Below are positions 14,901 through 54,659 of a stretch of 54,659 bases of DNA, in pieces. The stretch is taken from NCBI GenBank assembly GCA_001648575.1, contig LQXN01000045.1:1-54659 (forward strand), written 5' to 3'. The position numbers and the translations under genes are program-made. The DNA comes from Sutcliffiella horikoshii DSM 8719. Lineage in GTDB: Bacteria; Bacillota; Bacilli; Bacillales; Bacillaceae_I. The number at the start of each line of letters is the position of its first letter. The stretch's first letter is position 1. Under the pieces are notes generated by a model. That model was not told where the DNA came from. It worked only from the letters and a program-made list of their open reading frames with translations, and did not search any database.

Positions 14901-14939
14901 CAAAATAAAAAACCTTTTCCATAATAGTGGAAAAGGTTT
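14901..14939 (-). terminator. Distal copy of the fur terminator hairpin
   Basis: On the minus strand AAACCTTTTCC and GGAAAAGGTTT form an 11-pair stem with an eight-base loop followed by TTTTTTATTTT. The same hairpin is present next to the fur stop codon at about 15374-15405. The two copies are separated by the element at 14940-15372, and only this one keeps the full T tail. Confidence 0.85.
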
Positions 14940-15372
14940 CAGACTGTTGACAAACCTAAATATTTTAAAAATTGAAAGTAACTGTTGATCTTCGTTCCAT
15001 GCGCTTAGCTTTCCAGCGGGCGGTCCGTAAGCCTCCTCACAACGCTTGAGGCCACGGAAAAACCCAGTAACTTTTGGATAATATGATTTCTAGCTGTTGA
15101 TTGGAGCAATAGGCGAAGACTCCTGCGGGGGGATAGCGACATTCTTGAGACCCCGCAGGGCGTAGCCCGAGGAGGCTCAAGGTCGCCCCCTGGATAAGCG
15201 AAGCCGGTTGCGGAAATCAACAGCGGTATATAAACAGATTACTACACTCATGTACTTTTTCAGTGGCCTTCAACGCTTGGGGGTCTTACCTGTCCCTTCC
15301 TTCCGCAGGAATCATCGCGCCTTCCACTCCAATCAACTCGAGAATTTCATTATTTTGAGCTTTGTCTACACA
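14940..15372 (-). mobile_element. Terminator-associated repeat element, copy A (interrupted)
   Basis: Copy of the window's non-coding repeat family, lying in minus orientation. Left end CAGACTGTTGACAAA, right end TTTGTCTACACA; about 202 bp without the second element nested at 15049-15270. The fur terminator hairpin stands at both ends as a direct repeat of about 31-33 bp (left copy has two more A). It keeps the core arms GTTGATT and GATCAAC (a T-G pair) and the GTAAG/CTTAC pair, but its GGCGC partner reads GCGCA, so the fold is weakened. No coding capacity is credible; mobilisation would need a transposase acting in trans. Confidence 0.85.
15049..15270. mobile_element. Second-family repeat nested in copy A
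   Basis: A 222-bp element with ends AGGCCACGGAAAAA and, on the other strand, AAGGCCACTGAAAAA. It is flanked by a 9-bp direct repeat CAACGCTTG (15040-15048 and 15271-15279), the expected mark of insertion into the loop of the older element. Its core (GCGAAGACTCCTGCGGG, GAGACCCCGCAGGGCG, GAGGAGGCTC) has the same plan as the outer family, but its termini and target-duplication type are different. Similar cores are common between genes in Bacillaceae genomes, from memory. Confidence 0.8.
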
Positions 15373-15406
15373 ATAAAACCTTTTCCATAATAGTGGAAAA
15401 GGTTTA
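15373..15406 (-). terminator. Proximal copy of the fur terminator hairpin
   Basis: The stem AAACCTTTTCC/GGAAAAGGTTT overlaps the fur stop codon. After it the minus strand reads TTATTGTGTAGAC, so the T run has been cut short by the repeat element. Confidence 0.75.
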
Positions 15407-18782: not shown

Positions 18783-19706
18783 TTGATACCTATTAACCAA
18801 CTTGGAAACTCCGGGTTATATGTCAGCCAGCTTGGACTTGGATGTATGTCACTTGGAACGGAAGAAAAAAAGGCAACAGAAATTGTAAAGAAAGCACTGG
18901 ACCTTGGAATCAATTACTTTGATACAGCCGATCTCTACGATTTCGGTGAAAATGAAGAAATAGTTGGAAAAGCTTTAAAAGGACAGCGGGATAAAGTCAT
19001 TCTTGCCACTAAAGTTGGAAACAGCTGGACGCCTGGTAAGGAGGGCTGGGAATGGGACCCTAGCAAAGAGCATATCCTCTCAGCAGTAAAAGACAGCTTA
19101 CATAGGCTCAATACTGACTATATCGACTTGTATCAGCTTCACGGTGGGACGATAGAAGATCCAACTGAGGAGACAATTGAAGCATTCGAGGAATTGAAAA
19201 AAGGCGGATATATACGTGAATATGCAATATCCTCCATCAGGCCGAATGTGATTAAAAGATTCGTTGAAAATTCATCCATCGTTTCTGTCATGATGCAATA
19301 TAATATGCTTGATACACGACCGGAAGAATGGCTGGATTACTTGCACAATAACAACATCAGTGTGATTGCACGAGGGCCATTGGCTAAGGGATTATTGACT
19401 GAGCGCGGAATTGAAAAACTTCAGGAAAAATTCAATGGAAAAAGTTATCTTGATTATAGCAATGAAGAACTAGCTGATCTTTTGCCTAAGCTCACTCAGC
19501 TTTCTGTTGAAAAACCGCTTCAATCTTCCGCATTCCATTATTGCTTGACACATCCGGCTGTTGCAACAGTTATTCCTGGTGCAAGTTCCCTTGAGCAATT
19601 AGAAGCTAATGTAAGTGCCATATACGAAAAAGGATTAGGTCAAGATGAGTACAAAGCTTATAAAGAACTTCTGAAACAGTCGATCTATGAAACGCATCGA
19701 GAATAA
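18783..19706 (+). CDS. yqkF: Aldo/keto reductase YqkF
   Basis: NADPH-dependent oxidoreductase of 307 residues with the AKR barrel signature: GLGCMSLGT, INYFDTADLY (catalytic D and Y), the lysine in ILATKVGN and the histidine in YQLHGGTIEDP. The physiological substrate is unknown. The start is TTG at 18783 with AGGAGG seven bases before it. Position next to mciZ and nudF matches B. subtilis yqkF. Its stop codon lies within a terminator that was duplicated by repeat element copy B. Confidence 0.92.
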   Translation: MIPINQLGNSGLYVSQLGLGCMSLGTEEKKATEIVKKALDLGINYFDTADLYDFGENEEIVGKALKGQRDKVILATKVGNSWTPGKEGWEWDPSKEHILSAVKDSLHRLNTDYIDLYQLHGGTIEDPTEETIEAFEELKKGGYIREYAISSIRPNVIKRFVENSSIVSVMMQYNMLDTRPEEWLDYLHNNNISVIARGPLAKGLLTERGIEKLQEKFNGKSYLDYSNEELADLLPKLTQLSVEKPLQSSAFHYCLTHPAVATVIPGASSLEQLEANVSAIYEKGLGQDEYKAYKELLKQSIYETHRE

Positions 19707-19734
19707 GCAGTATCCCTAATTGGGATGCTGCTTT

Positions 19735-19942
19735 CAGTGTGTAGACAAAGTTATTTTCGAATGATAAATTCCTGGTTGATCGTAGTGGAAGGAGCGTAGA
19801 CTCCTGCGGGAGGAAGGGACAGGTAAGACCCCGCAACGGAGTGAGGAGGCTTACGGACCGCCCGCTGGAAAGCGAAGCTCCTGTAACGGAGATCAACCGT
19901 TCCAACAGATAACCTAACTAAATTTTAGTTTGTCAACAGTCT
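19735..19942 (+). mobile_element. Terminator-associated repeat element, copy B
   Basis: Ends CAGTGTGTAGACAAA and TTTGTCAACAGTCT, 208 bp. It is flanked by hairpin copies at 19703-19734 and 19943-19973: a direct repeat of about 31 bp with three differences. The left copy holds the yqkF stop TAA, and the right copy repeats that ATAAGCAG sequence, showing the right copy derives from the gene's own terminator. Core pairs: GTTGATC (19775-19781) with GATCAAC (19891-19897), GGAGC (19791-19795) with GCTCC (19877-19881), and GTAAG (19823-19827) with CTTAC (19850-19854). Confidence 0.88.
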
Positions 19943-19980
19943 ATAAGCAGCATCTCTAATAGGGATGCTGCTTATATTTT
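19943..19980 (+). terminator. Distal copy of the yqkF terminator
   Basis: GCAGCATCTC and GGGATGCTGC form a ten-pair stem (one T-G) around TAATA, followed by TTATATTTTT. The proximal copy at 19707-19731 is followed directly by the repeat element instead of a T tail. Confidence 0.8.
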
Positions 19981-23735: not shown

Positions 23736-23763
23736 AAAAAGGTAGCTTTACAGTAAGCTACCC
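23736..23763 (-). terminator. Hairpin copy left of element C
   Basis: On the minus strand GGTAGCTT and AAGCTACC pair around a six-base loop and are followed by TTTTTC. An identical 24-bp copy lies at 23977-24000, on the other side of repeat element C. This copy keeps the T tail for transcripts coming from the 24018-25739 gene. Confidence 0.75.
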
Positions 23764-23976
23764 CAGTGTGTAGACAAAGTTCAAATATGATAAAAATTCC
23801 TGGTTGATTGCAGTGGAAGGCGCGCAGACTCCCGCGGGAGGAAGGGACATGTAAGACCCCGCAAGGCGTTAGCCTGAGGAGGCTTACGGACCGCCCGCTG
23901 GAAAGCGAAGCGCCTGGAACGAAAATCAACTGTTTCAACAGATAACTTAACTAATTTTTAGTTTGTCAACATTCTG
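23764..23976 (+). mobile_element. Terminator-associated repeat element, copy C
   Basis: 213 bp, ends CAGTGTGTAGACAAA and TTTGTCAACATTCTG. The flanking direct repeat is a perfect 24 bp, AGGTAGCTTTACAGTAAGCT plus ACCC, which is exactly the terminator stem-loop. Core arms: GTTGATT (23803-23809) with AATCAAC (23924-23930), GGCGC (23819-23823) with GCGCC (23910-23914), and GTAAG (23851-23855) with CTTAC (23883-23887). Both members of two pairs differ from copy B while staying complementary. Confidence 0.88.
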
Positions 23977-24004
23977 AGGTAGCTTTACAGTAAGCTACCC
24001 TTTT
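23977..24004 (+). terminator. Hairpin copy right of element C
   Basis: Same stem as at 23740-23763, followed on the plus strand by CTTTTG. It is the copy next to the end of the 24018 gene, where its minus-strand T tail has been replaced by the element. Confidence 0.65.
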
Positions 24005-38190: not shown

Positions 38191-38220
38191 AAGAAAGCAT
38201 AGAGGTTTTCCCTCTATGCT
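38191..38220 (-). terminator. Distal hairpin next to element D
   Basis: On the minus strand AGCATAGAGG and CCTCTATGCT form a perfect ten-pair stem with a five-base loop followed by TTTCTTTTC. A decayed copy lies on the other side of element D at 38441-38465. Confidence 0.75.
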
Positions 38221-38440
38221 CAGACTGTTGACAAAGCCCTAAATACTTTTAAATTTGCATCCTGCTGTTGATCTTCGTTCCAGGCGCTTCGCTTTTCGCG
38301 GGCGGTCCGGAAGCCTCCTCGGGCTTTCGCAATGCGGGGTCTTCCCTGTCCCTTCCTCCCGCAGAAGTCTGCGCGCCTTCCACTACGATCAACATAGGTT
38401 TTGCATATCTCCAAGATGAAATAACTTTGTCTACACACTG
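38221..38440 (-). mobile_element. Terminator-associated repeat element, copy D
   Basis: 220 bp in minus orientation, ends CAGACTGTTGACAAA and TTTGTCTACACACTG. It is nearly identical to copy E. The flanking hairpin sequence is repeated (38196-38220 and 38441-38465) but the right copy has three or four changes that break its right arm. Core pairs are of the GTTGATC/GATCAAC, GGCGC/GCGCC and GGAAG/CTTCC type. Confidence 0.87.
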
Positions 38441-38489
38441 AGCATAGAGTTTTTCCCTTTAAGCCTATTAGAAAACAAACGTTGAAAAT

Positions 38490-38598: not shown

Positions 38599-38994
38599 TT
38601 AAATTTCTGTAGATTTCTCTAACCTATTGATCCTAAATTCCATTTTGGCGTTCTTCTCAATAAGAAGATCCGTATCAAATTTAAAAGAATCTAGTCTTTC
38701 GTTTGTGGCATTAAGTCTTAAGTCAATCTTTTTCATATCACGACGGTATTCATCTTTATATTGTTTGAACTCCACTTTTATTGATTCAACATCACTCTTT
38801 AATGTACTAACATCACTCTTTAACGTACTAACATCACTCTTTAATACACTAACATCACTTTTTAATACACTAACATCACTCTTTAATACACTAACATCAC
38901 TCTTTAATACACTAACATCACTTTTTAAATCGCTTATGTCTAGCTTCATCTCATTGATTCCTTGCAGGATTTGCTTCAACAATTCGTTTTCCAC
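38599..38994 (-). CDS. Coiled-coil protein with heptad SDVSVLK repeats
   Basis: A 131-residue protein. Residues about 17-68 are seven copies of SDVS(V/T)LK, a perfect heptad pattern with V and L at the core positions; the rest (to EFRINRLEKSTEI) is also predicted coiled coil. The start is GTG at 38994 with GGAGGTG seven bases before it. At the DNA level the repeats are 21-base units that are almost identical. No known partner; it may form a fibre or oligomer. Function unknown. Confidence 0.75.
   Translation of the reverse strand: MENELLKQILQGINEMKLDISDLKSDVSVLKSDVSVLKSDVSVLKSDVSVLKSDVSTLKSDVSTLKSDVESIKVEFKQYKDEYRRDMKKIDLRLNATNERLDSFKFDTDLLIEKNAKMEFRINRLEKSTEI
38785..38931. repeat. 21-bp tandem repeat inside the coiled-coil gene
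   Basis: Seven units of the type ACTAACATCACTCTTTAATA plus C; the inner four differ by at most one base. Unit length equals one heptad of the protein, so copy-number changes keep the frame. Confidence 0.9.
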
Positions 38995-43966: not shown

Positions 43967-43993
43967 GAGGAGGTTCTCAAATGAAGAACCTCT
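43967..43993 (+). terminator. Proximal hairpin next to element E
   Basis: GAGGTTCT and AGAACCTC pair around a seven-base loop; the element starts directly after it, so no T tail is left. Confidence 0.65.
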
Positions 43994-44214
43994 CAGTGTG
44001 TAGACAAAGTTATTTTATCTTTGAGATATGCAATAACCTGTGTTGATCGTAGTGGAAGGCGCGCAGACTTCTGCGGGAGGAAGGGACATGGAAGACCCCG
44101 CAGGGCGTAAGCCCGAGGAGGCTTCCGGACCGCCCGCGAAAAGCGAAGCGCCTGGAACGAAGATCAACAGCAGGATGCAAATTTTAAAAAATTTTGGGCT
44201 TTGTCAACAGTCTG
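43994..44214 (+). mobile_element. Terminator-associated repeat element, copy E
   Basis: 221 bp, ends CAGTGTGTAGACAAA and TTTGTCAACAGTCTG; the cleanest copy. Direct repeats of 25 bp with one difference flank it and equal the hairpin of the 43727 gene. Core pairs: GTTGATC (44042-44048) with GATCAAC (44162-44168), GGCGC (44058-44062) with GCGCC (44148-44152), and GGAAG (44090-44094) with CTTCC (44122-44126). The last pair differs on both sides from GTAAG/CTTAC in copies B and C. Confidence 0.9.
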
Positions 44215-44246
44215 GGAGGTTCTCAATTGAAGAACCTCTTTTTTGT
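44215..44246 (+). terminator. Distal hairpin next to element E
   Basis: GAGGTTCT and AGAACCTC around CAATTGA, followed by TTTTTTG. This copy keeps the T tail of the original terminator. Confidence 0.82.
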
Positions 44247-44351
44247 GAATATAGGTAGGCCTGAAGTTTGTATCTTTTCTGGTGTTCGGACTTTTAGAAG
44301 CTACCATTTGACCGAAGCTCTATCAGAAACCGAACCCGAAGAAAAGCCCCC

Positions 44352-53504: not shown

Positions 53505-54249
53505 AGATTTACGTACCCAACTTCCATTATGGACAATTGCATTTTGCGTCCTTTTGATGCCATTGACTGTTAGTCTAGTACTGTTGATTGACTTAATGAT
53601 ACATAGCTCTGATACTTTTTTCGTAGTAACCGAAACAGGAACTTCCTTTAATTGGGGCTTAATGTCCATTCAACTCTTCATGGTTAGTATCTTGTTAATT
53701 ATCTCTTTTTATCTTGTCTTTTATCTTAGATATAGAAAACATAATAGGGAGAATCCAAGAGAAAGACTGTACTTTTTTATTTTTTACAAACCAGGTGAGA
53801 TACTTGAAGATGATGAAATGCTTCAACAAGTATCGAAAAATGCCACGAAAAAGGTATACATCCTTTTTGTAAATGCACTTCCAGCACTTGCATTTCTGAT
53901 GATTATCCCCCTTCATCGATCAGTATTCATTATGGCGATACTACTAGTAATAATTTTTCAGAATCTTCTTTTTTACAATGAAATCAATAAATACTACTCT
54001 GGCAATTATACATTCAACAACAAGGGTAAGAAGACGGATTACGAACTTTCGAAAGCTAATAAAAGAGTTGTGAGAGGCATGGCGATTGTATGTTTCATCA
54101 TTGCAGCTCTATCTGTTGGCAGGCTGGCACAAATTCATTATCATGCCCAGAGCATACCCTCTCAAATGGAAGCATGCATGAATGAAGGCGGAACTGCGGT
54201 TATAGAAAAAAACAGCCTATGGAGCCTTACGGAATTCACATGCAAATAG
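53497..54249 (+). CDS. Membrane protein, partner of the Xre regulator
   Basis: A 250-residue protein with about five membrane segments (near 12-35, 55-75, 122-140, 142-160 and 193-212), a charged cytoplasmic loop and a C-terminal outside domain with two cysteines (MEACMNEGG and LTEFTCK) that could pair. Not assigned to a known family. It ends in a hairpin that overlaps its stop codon. Confidence 0.7.
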   Translation: MNKDLRTQLPLWTIAFCVLLMPLTVSLVLLIDLMIHSSDTFFVVTETGTSFNWGLMSIQLFMVSILLIISFYLVFYLRYRKHNRENPRERLYFFIFYKPGEILEDDEMLQQVSKNATKKVYILFVNALPALAFLMIIPLHRSVFIMAILLVIIFQNLLFYNEINKYYSGNYTFNNKGKKTDYELSKANKRVVRGMAIVCFIIAALSVGRLAQIHYHAQSIPSQMEACMNEGGTAVIEKNSLWSLTEFTCK

Positions 54250-54270
54250 GCATTGCTTTTAGCAATGCCT
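54248..54270 (+). terminator. Hairpin at the end of the 53497 gene
   Basis: AGGCATTGCT and AGCAATGCCT form a ten-pair stem with a three-base loop; it starts within the stop codon. Repeat element F follows directly. The second hairpin copy expected on the far side is absent because an IS element cuts element F. Confidence 0.75.
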
Positions 54271-54365
54271 CAGCGTGTAGACAAACTTTAGAATAATAAA
54301 ATTTCCTAGTTGATCGTAGTGGAAGGAGCGTAGACTCCTGCGGGAGGAAGGGACAGGGAAGACCC
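54271..54365 (+). mobile_element. Terminator-associated repeat element, copy F (truncated)
   Basis: The first 95 bases of the repeat family: end CAGCGTGTAGACAAA and arms GTTGATC and GGAGC. The match to the other copies stops after GGGAAGACCC, where the IS4-like element begins. Confidence 0.82.
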
Positions 54366-54432
54366 ACTAGCTTTGCATGAGTTCCTTTATATGTAAAATT
54401 ATCCATATTATTTCTAGACAAATACAAAAAAA

Positions 54433-54491
54433 GCTCCTATTGTAGGTATGTTGGATGTTTGTTCCCATAAACAATCCACCTACAAAGGAGC
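54433..54491 (+). promoter_or_regulatory. Leader hairpin masking the transposase ribosome site
   Basis: GCTCCTATTGTAGGT (54433-54447) pairs with ACCTACAAAGGAGC (54478-54491) with one bulged base. The right arm holds the AAGGAG ribosome site, so transcripts entering from outside the IS would be poorly translated. Confidence 0.65.
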
Positions 54492-54505
54492 ACAAAAGCA
54501 ATATT

Positions 54506-54659
54506 ATGATAGCTCATAAATCAGTTATAAGTCAATGTTTATCTTTATTACCTACAGAAGATTTAGCTTGTCCCCTCCTAAATTATGAGATGAAAAAGCT
54601 ATCTGTAGAACAATTGGTAAAGCTTTTTATCACAGCTCAATTAGATCATTGGGAATCAT
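54506..54659 (+). CDS. IS4-family transposase, N-terminal part (cut by window edge)
   Basis: The first 51 codons are open to the window end. MKKLSVEQLVKLFITAQLDH plus WES resembles the N-terminal domain (DUF4372-like) of IS4-type DDE transposases of Bacillus. The AAGGAG site lies about 14 bases before the ATG and inside a hairpin. The DDE catalytic part is outside the window. Confidence 0.65.
   Translation, partial: MIAHKSVISQCLSLLPTEDLACPLLNYEMKKLSVEQLVKLFITAQLDHWES

Follow-up and report, generated by a model that had tools for sequence, protein, structure and literature searches.

DDE transposases usually leave a short target duplication of nearly fixed length. Within the IS1182 family of insertion sequences (IS), IS1272 is described as replacing stem-loops, some of its older copies lying in non-palindromic targets, and in the same account Wan et al. 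drew the duplication of a whole stem-loop as a hypothetical "pathway b" (PMC5678879). The direct repeats that ISfinder lists for the IS1182 family reportedly range from 2 to 60 bp (PMC7335449). The present study concerns a family of miniature inverted-repeat transposable elements (MITEs) in a 54,659-nt stretch of Sutcliffiella horikoshii DSM 8719 (contig LQXN01000045.1, positions 1 to 54,659; the whole stretch is referred to below as the window), together with an IS1182-family transposon that bears the same type of ends. The MITE is inserted at the feet of hairpins, each of which is found on both sides of the element, and intact IS1182 copies give the same duplication. Duplication of the whole stem-loop is the rule for one lineage of the IS1182 family.

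The window holds six copies of the MITE family, at 14940, 19735, 23764, 38221, 43994 and 54271, each in the place given by the original prediction; the uninterrupted copies measure 209-221 bp. The end pattern CAGTGTGTAGACAAA, with up to three mismatches, is matched 11 times in the window, against a shuffle mean of 1.69. Each of the five copies with both flanks (A to E) lies between two copies of the hairpin of its own locus, 24-31 bp in length, and the duplication starts at the first base beyond the element. Among these five, the target hairpin differs in sequence from locus to locus, as had been proposed. Copy A (14940..15375, minus strand), recognised by its end and inverted-repeat matches to the other copies, is 436 bp long because another MITE (about 15050-15268) is nested inside it. 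It is flanked by identical hairpins of 30 bp (14910..14939 and 15376..15405); the predicted duplication is therefore present and perfect, although the predicted length of 31-33 bp was not matched. At the other four sites the predicted lengths held. Copy B (19735..19943, plus strand, 209 bp) lies between hairpins of 31 bp that differ by four mismatches (19704..19734 and 19944..19974), and copy C (23764..23976, plus strand, 213 bp) between identical hairpins of 24 bp (23740..23763 and 23977..24000). The left hairpin of copy D (38221..38440, minus strand, 220 bp) is intact (25 bp, 38196..38220), and the right one (25 bp, 38441..38465) is decayed, with four mismatches and loss of the fold. Copy E (43994..44214, plus strand, 221 bp) lies between hairpins of 25 bp with one mismatch (43969..43993 and 44215..44239), the right one being followed by a T-run; the copy itself is palindromic nearly throughout and folds at -92 kcal/mol as RNA (z-score -7.34). 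Copy F (54271..54365, plus strand) is interrupted and shows only a left hairpin, 23 nt by eye (54248..54270), because the family match ends at 54365 and the contig at 54659. In a simple scan of the window for terminator-like hairpin sites, 5 of 18 were occupied, and an Rfam scan of the window gave no family at its cut-off.

The sister species of the genus are syntenic, and 40 stretches were taken from them, in which the hairpins were judged by eye (below, G numbers designate genomes and L numbers loci). At sites A, C and E combined, 23 of 24 sister loci contain a single hairpin and no element: 8 of 8 at site A, where the hairpin corresponds to 15376..15405, 6 of 6 at site C (23977..24000, the hairpin having diverged in G007, G009 and G012) and 9 of 10 at site E (44215..44239). 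Among the six sister loci of site B, those of G005, G007 and G009 have one hairpin, and in G016 and G010 the element lies between two hairpins, of which the left one is truncated in G010. The duplication arises from a single pre-existing hairpin, and the expectation of one hairpin in empty sites and two in filled sites was borne out.

These sister loci bear directly on the view that the hairpins had been duplicated beforehand and that the element, inserted in an ordinary manner next to or between them, makes no duplication itself. Hairpins do flank two neighbouring elements at some sites, as this view would have it. However, the empty sites at A, C and E have one hairpin, and two hairpins without an element, which would also have spoken against the original prediction, were seen in none of the sister loci inspected; moreover, a match between hairpins from different loci is rare (5 of 5000 draws, as detailed below), and intact IS copies at unrelated sites behave alike. 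Pre-existing double hairpins were rejected on the basis of the empty sites, and we regard this view as very improbable. A second possibility, stem-loop replacement of the IS1272 type, in which the target hairpin is deleted upon insertion, would be in keeping with the transposase family and with the kind of target, which includes terminators in the published accounts (PMC5678879, PMC4923244). Here the hairpin is retained twice, and replacement, already contradicted for this IS1182 lineage, almost certainly does not apply.

The whole genome (4.68 Mb in 67 contigs) contains 222 matches to the end pattern CAGNNTGTNGACAAA, compared to one match for the reversed pattern. Places were pooled from the end-pattern listing and from two DNA searches (at most 40 candidates scored in each), yielding 115 stretches, a collection rather than a full census. 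Facing end pairs with at most two substitutions per end, 120-700 bases apart and with flanks of at least 60 bases, numbered 102, of which two were removed as flank duplicates, leaving 100 copies for which both flanks could be compared; the set excludes copies that have lost an end or in which an end has decayed further. With the element ends fixed, a clean duplication (at least 15 bp, with at most two mismatches) was found in 68 of the 100 copies, with lengths of 18-39 bp (median 26), whereas pairing a left flank with the right flank of another copy gave one in only 5 of 5000 draws. Without gaps, 18 of the remaining copies show more mismatches and 14 no duplication; when gaps were allowed, 26 of these 32 copies exceeded the 99% point of the mismatched pairs, indicating a diverged or gapped duplication. 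A hairpin is present at both feet in 86 of the 100 copies, at one foot in 12 and at neither in two (the same test 50 nt outward was positive in 8 of 100). Collected copies outside hairpins, which would have counted against the original prediction, are thus rare.

The length of the duplication varies with that of the hairpin. In the 68 clean MITE sites, the outermost base pair coincides exactly with the duplication edges in 46, is set one base inward at each side in 10 and is placed otherwise in 12; in the 68 duplicated sites of the IS set described below, the respective numbers are 56, 10 and 2. A script that demands strict pairing of the first base gave a hairpin equal in length to the duplication in 46 of 68 sites; the correlations it gave were low (0.48 and 0.47), as sites with unpaired outer bases were counted as having no hairpin. 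Both MITE and IS duplications fold well as a whole, with a mean of -14.9 kcal/mol for the MITE sites (-2.7 when shuffled and -1.0 for the neighbouring window) and -14.5 kcal/mol for the IS sites (-2.4 for shuffled letters). This folding is relevant to an alternative in which the transposase would recognise sequence-specific A...T motifs at the feet with a flexible stagger, the palindromy representing merely two half-sites and no extruded structure. An A at the start of the duplication and a T at its end are indeed found in 46 of the 68 MITE sites and 51 of the 68 IS sites. Yet terminators commonly have an A ahead of the stem and a T behind it, insertion also occurs at feet with other bases, and the spacing ranges from 18 to 42 bp; together with the folding of the entire duplication, this renders the alternative improbable.

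The targets had been predicted to be terminator hairpins. Insertion at the feet of hairpins stood, and the term "terminator" proved slightly too narrow: at the threshold used, neither a T-run nor an A-run is present in 12 of the 68 MITE and 7 of the 68 IS sites, which suggests that it is the hairpin as such that is targeted. Insertion occurs without dependence on terminator polarity. The ratio of T-run side to A-run side is 26:31 for the MITE (57 of 68 sites decided, ties left out) and 30:24 for the IS (54 of 68 decided, ties left out), and such an unbiased orientation is expected of a symmetric target. Polarity-dependent insertion, whether single-strand or transcription-coupled, was rejected on the same grounds. 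Another explanation would have the hairpin attacked as single-stranded DNA, in the lagging-strand template or a transcription bubble, with the second strand joined later, instead of as a double-stranded cruciform. Most target hairpins are indeed terminator-like, and they are small: of 136, 117 have stems of 8-13 bp and 121 have loops of 3-6 nt; short stems extrude poorly as cruciforms in relaxed DNA. The absence of an orientation bias argues against a single-stranded target, as does the fact that single-strand transposons of the IS200/IS605 type leave no duplication, and we consider this explanation rather doubtful. Among the loci of the genome itself, there are five gaps of 12-60 nt between adjacent elements, and each of these gaps folds (-7.0 to -20.1 kcal/mol); a duplicated hairpin can serve as a target once more.

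A search of the genome with Pfam DUF772 pointed to five places. In one, a decayed element of 1498 bp with ends CAGCTTGTAGACAAA and CAGACCGTAGACAAA lies between two versions of one hairpin, and a second IS remnant is a partial copy; a piece of each remnant matches the IS1182 transposase model. Intact copies occur in other genomes. In the sister genome G009, the transposase has 445 residues from the first ATG, and a perfect hairpin duplication of 30 bp surrounds the element. The protein is 100% identical to one on the S. horikoshii plasmid pBH-BAT-167, which makes Sutcliffiella very probably the genus concerned. The copy in G001, which belongs to another genus, encodes 453 residues and is flanked by a perfect 22-bp palindrome. 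Loci L133 and L135 score 477.4 and 482.7 bits, respectively, on NF033551 (cut-off 270), and in both the DDE transposase domains PF13751, PF05598 and PF01609 are above cut-off; in L133 the terminal inverted repeats CAGCTTGTAGACAAA / CAGACCGTAGACAAA surround a single open reading frame. The AlphaFold2 model of the transposase is poor (mean predicted local distance difference test score 61). Ends of the CAGnnTGTnGACAAA type and the type of target duplication are common to the MITE and the autonomous IS. A transposase with these ends, as sought by the original prediction, therefore exists and its own copies duplicate hairpins; judging from the shared ends, an IS1182-family transposase is likely to be the helper of the MITE.

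The distribution of this behaviour was assessed in a scan of named genomes, in which at least 597 stretches were matched, 500 of them encoding a relative, and the best 80 of the 500 were used. An end pair was found in 76 of the 80, and 72 have both flanks of at least 50 bases and represent distinct sites; several genomes contribute many of the 80 loci, and each site was counted once. A hairpin duplication of 19-42 bp is present in 68 of the 72 usable sites. The IS end pair was picked by the best duplication, which favours detection, and the fixed-end MITE control cited above (5 of 5000) gauges chance. Hosts with the duplication include Neobacillus, Cytobacillus, Peribacillus, Lysinibacillus, Sporosarcina, Ureibacillus, Domibacillus and Saccharibacillus, and an element on an Enterococcus faecium plasmid (L330), whose protein is about 59% identical, has a 22-bp hairpin duplication. 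Among 299 genomes of other genera of the order, 189 contain the pattern CAGNNTGTNGACAAA one or more times, some of them in tens of copies (for instance 106, 94 and 90 in G121, G196 and G270, compared to 0, 0 and 1 for the reversed pattern).

In the distant IS1182 loci L298-L327, the ends were sought de novo. Hairpin duplications were found in L298, L299, L300, L301 and L312, duplications of 9 bp in L307, L310 (one mismatch) and L311, and duplications of 4 bp in L315, L317 and L318; that of ISCfr1 is 4-6 bp. Among loci with GGGGCTG-containing ends, L305 and L306 show no duplication, L313 at most 4 bp and L316 2 bp, and these four are candidates for an IS1272-like hairpin-deleting mode. In a plasmid search with L313, the name IS1272 appeared in none of the best 25 of 1970 records. 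A 26-bp direct repeat at L324 was not counted, its inverted repeat being poor. A quick tree was built from 59 hand-picked proteins, without IS1272; 39 of them belong to the hairpin class, 7 to the short class and 13 have no assigned class. All 39 hairpin rows fall on the same side of one branch. L302 and L304 are placed within the hairpin group; a nearby contig end truncates both, and in L304 a hairpin is seen, by eye, at the right foot only.

It is highly probable, in our estimation, that the family is a non-autonomous MITE with the CAGnnTGTnGACAAA ends of one IS1182 lineage, whose transposase joins the element to the feet of a stem-loop, the stem-loop then being copied by repair. The transposase of this lineage would pick DNA able to form a stem-loop, presumably in the form of an extruded cruciform, and the two 3' ends of the element would be joined to the two stem feet, either exactly or roughly one base farther out. 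As a DDE enzyme, it would attack the two 5' feet of the cruciform, and fill-in of the resulting gaps may copy the stem-loop in full, so that each side of the element receives one copy. The two feet adjoin at the four-way junction of a cruciform, and the length of the stem would therefore be immaterial. The transposase of the IS would move the MITE in trans. After a terminator has been hit, one of the duplicated hairpins would remain joined to the T-run, so that the terminator would not be removed and a new target would be made. We also consider it fairly probable that in this DDE lineage the secondary structure of the target, and not the geometry of the enzyme, sets the length of the duplication, a hairpin of any length being copied whole.

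Several observations weigh against this interpretation or mark its limits. Six of the 100 MITE copies (L049, L050, L105, L114, L123 and L128) have no recognisable duplication; two of the six have unrelated hairpins on either side, which would fit recombination between copies, and in L050, L105 and L123 the paired ends are unusually far apart and may have been assigned wrongly. Of the 72 IS sites, 4 are without a hairpin duplication, namely L227, L228 and L229, each with a poor end, and L270. In the sister species, G005 carries an unrelated hairpin at site E (the exception among the 24 A, C and E loci), and the hairpin of site B is not conserved in G011. At site D, the nine sister loci contain no element ends and none has the first nine bases of the D hairpin; the four inspected in full carry a different hairpin, and neither site D nor the G011 locus speaks for or against the duplication. 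No intact copy of the hairpin-duplicating IS lineage was found in the 67 contigs of the genome's own assembly. Comparison of MITE copies B, C and E with two IS copies revealed no similarity past the terminal 15-17 bases or so, and since the likeness is confined to the ends, mobilisation in trans is only inferred. The tree supports a single hairpin lineage moderately (84 in the Shimodaira-Hasegawa-like approximate likelihood ratio test, with long-branch warnings). In 30 copies with mismatches and clear polarity, the hairpin adjacent to the T-run was not the better preserved one (15 versus 12, 3 ties, p 0.70), and selection for a retained terminator is therefore not supported. Finally, extrusion of the cruciform and attack at its 5' feet are deduced from the arrangement of sequences. 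Taken as a whole, the hairpin-flanked elements of the original prediction are confirmed and its interpretation is supported.

Some additional features of the window and of related loci are recorded here. The MITE nested in copy A (15050..15268) belongs to another family, whose ends, GGCCAC..GAAAAA, are similar to the ends of IS1182-type elements that have duplications of 9 bp (L307, L310 and L311), and other copies of it occur in sister genomes, where matches of 83-92% identity are listed for this part. The sequence CAACGCTTG is found on both sides of the nested MITE, 1 base from its left end and 2 bases from its right end, as delimited. By eye, a similar GTTGAT...ATCAAC core is present in both of the otherwise unlike MITE families (43994-44214 and about 15090-15225), and it looks as if one structured core were taken up between different transposon ends. 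Copy F is broken by unrelated sequence (54366-54659) that reaches the end of the contig and that, by eye, may begin a transposase gene. A 21-bp tandem repeat (38767-38955) lies within a minus-strand reading frame that looks like a coiled-coil protein. In G006, downstream of site E, locus L184 contains a tandem array of roughly 55-bp units, CTATTTGACC...TGTCTAATAGAAGCG; an array of this kind stands behind the site E hairpin in some sister species, with varying copy number, and a decayed trace of it can be seen by eye near 44290-44340 of the window.

In their size, lack of a transposase gene, terminal inverted repeats and numerous copies, the elements described here are like other bacterial MITEs. 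The main text of a review on MITEs (PMC10969869) mentions neither IS1182 nor "hairpin". In the open-access literature we found no report of an observed whole-hairpin duplication; subscription reviews and the ISfinder pages were outside this scope, and prior notice is possible there. With respect to the IS1182 family at large, the helper transposase clearly bears its signature (477 bits on NF033551), and the difference lies in the duplication, for which 4 bp is given for ISPse1 (PMC3281130, as a table figure whose column heading lies outside the part consulted) and for ISCaa15 (PMC3196728). Hairpin duplication could explain part of the 2-60 bp repeats attributed to the family (PMC7335449). The ISEfa7-like elements of Enterococcus faecium plasmids have the same ends, a protein about 59% identical and, in L330, the hairpin duplication, whereas L329, a locus annotated as ISEfa7, shows no duplication at its present ends.

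The closest described systems are IS1272 and TnSha1, which share with the present lineage an IS1182-family transposase and stem-loop targets, often terminators, with no preference in primary sequence (PMC5678879, PMC4923244). TnSha1 is reported in both orientations at one target (PMC5678879, PMC4923244). In the case of IS1272, the stem-loop is described as deleted, wholly or partly, with no target duplication (PMC5678879); here the target is likewise a stem-loop, but it is duplicated as a whole in 94 of 100 MITE copies and 68 of 72 IS sites. Many unrelated sites in many species thus show the copying of a structure of about 20-40 bp, in most cases right up to its ends. The simplest route to this outcome, we infer, is pathway b of Wan et al., and the elements supply natural examples for what was drawn as a hypothetical alternative (PMC5678879). 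They also provide pairs of filled and empty sites for the study of cruciform-directed transposition, and suggest how an element may fill terminators without removing them. If the proposed mechanism is true, this lineage and IS1272 would together show that one transposase family can produce opposite outcomes on like targets, copying the hairpin or deleting it, according to the foot attacked.
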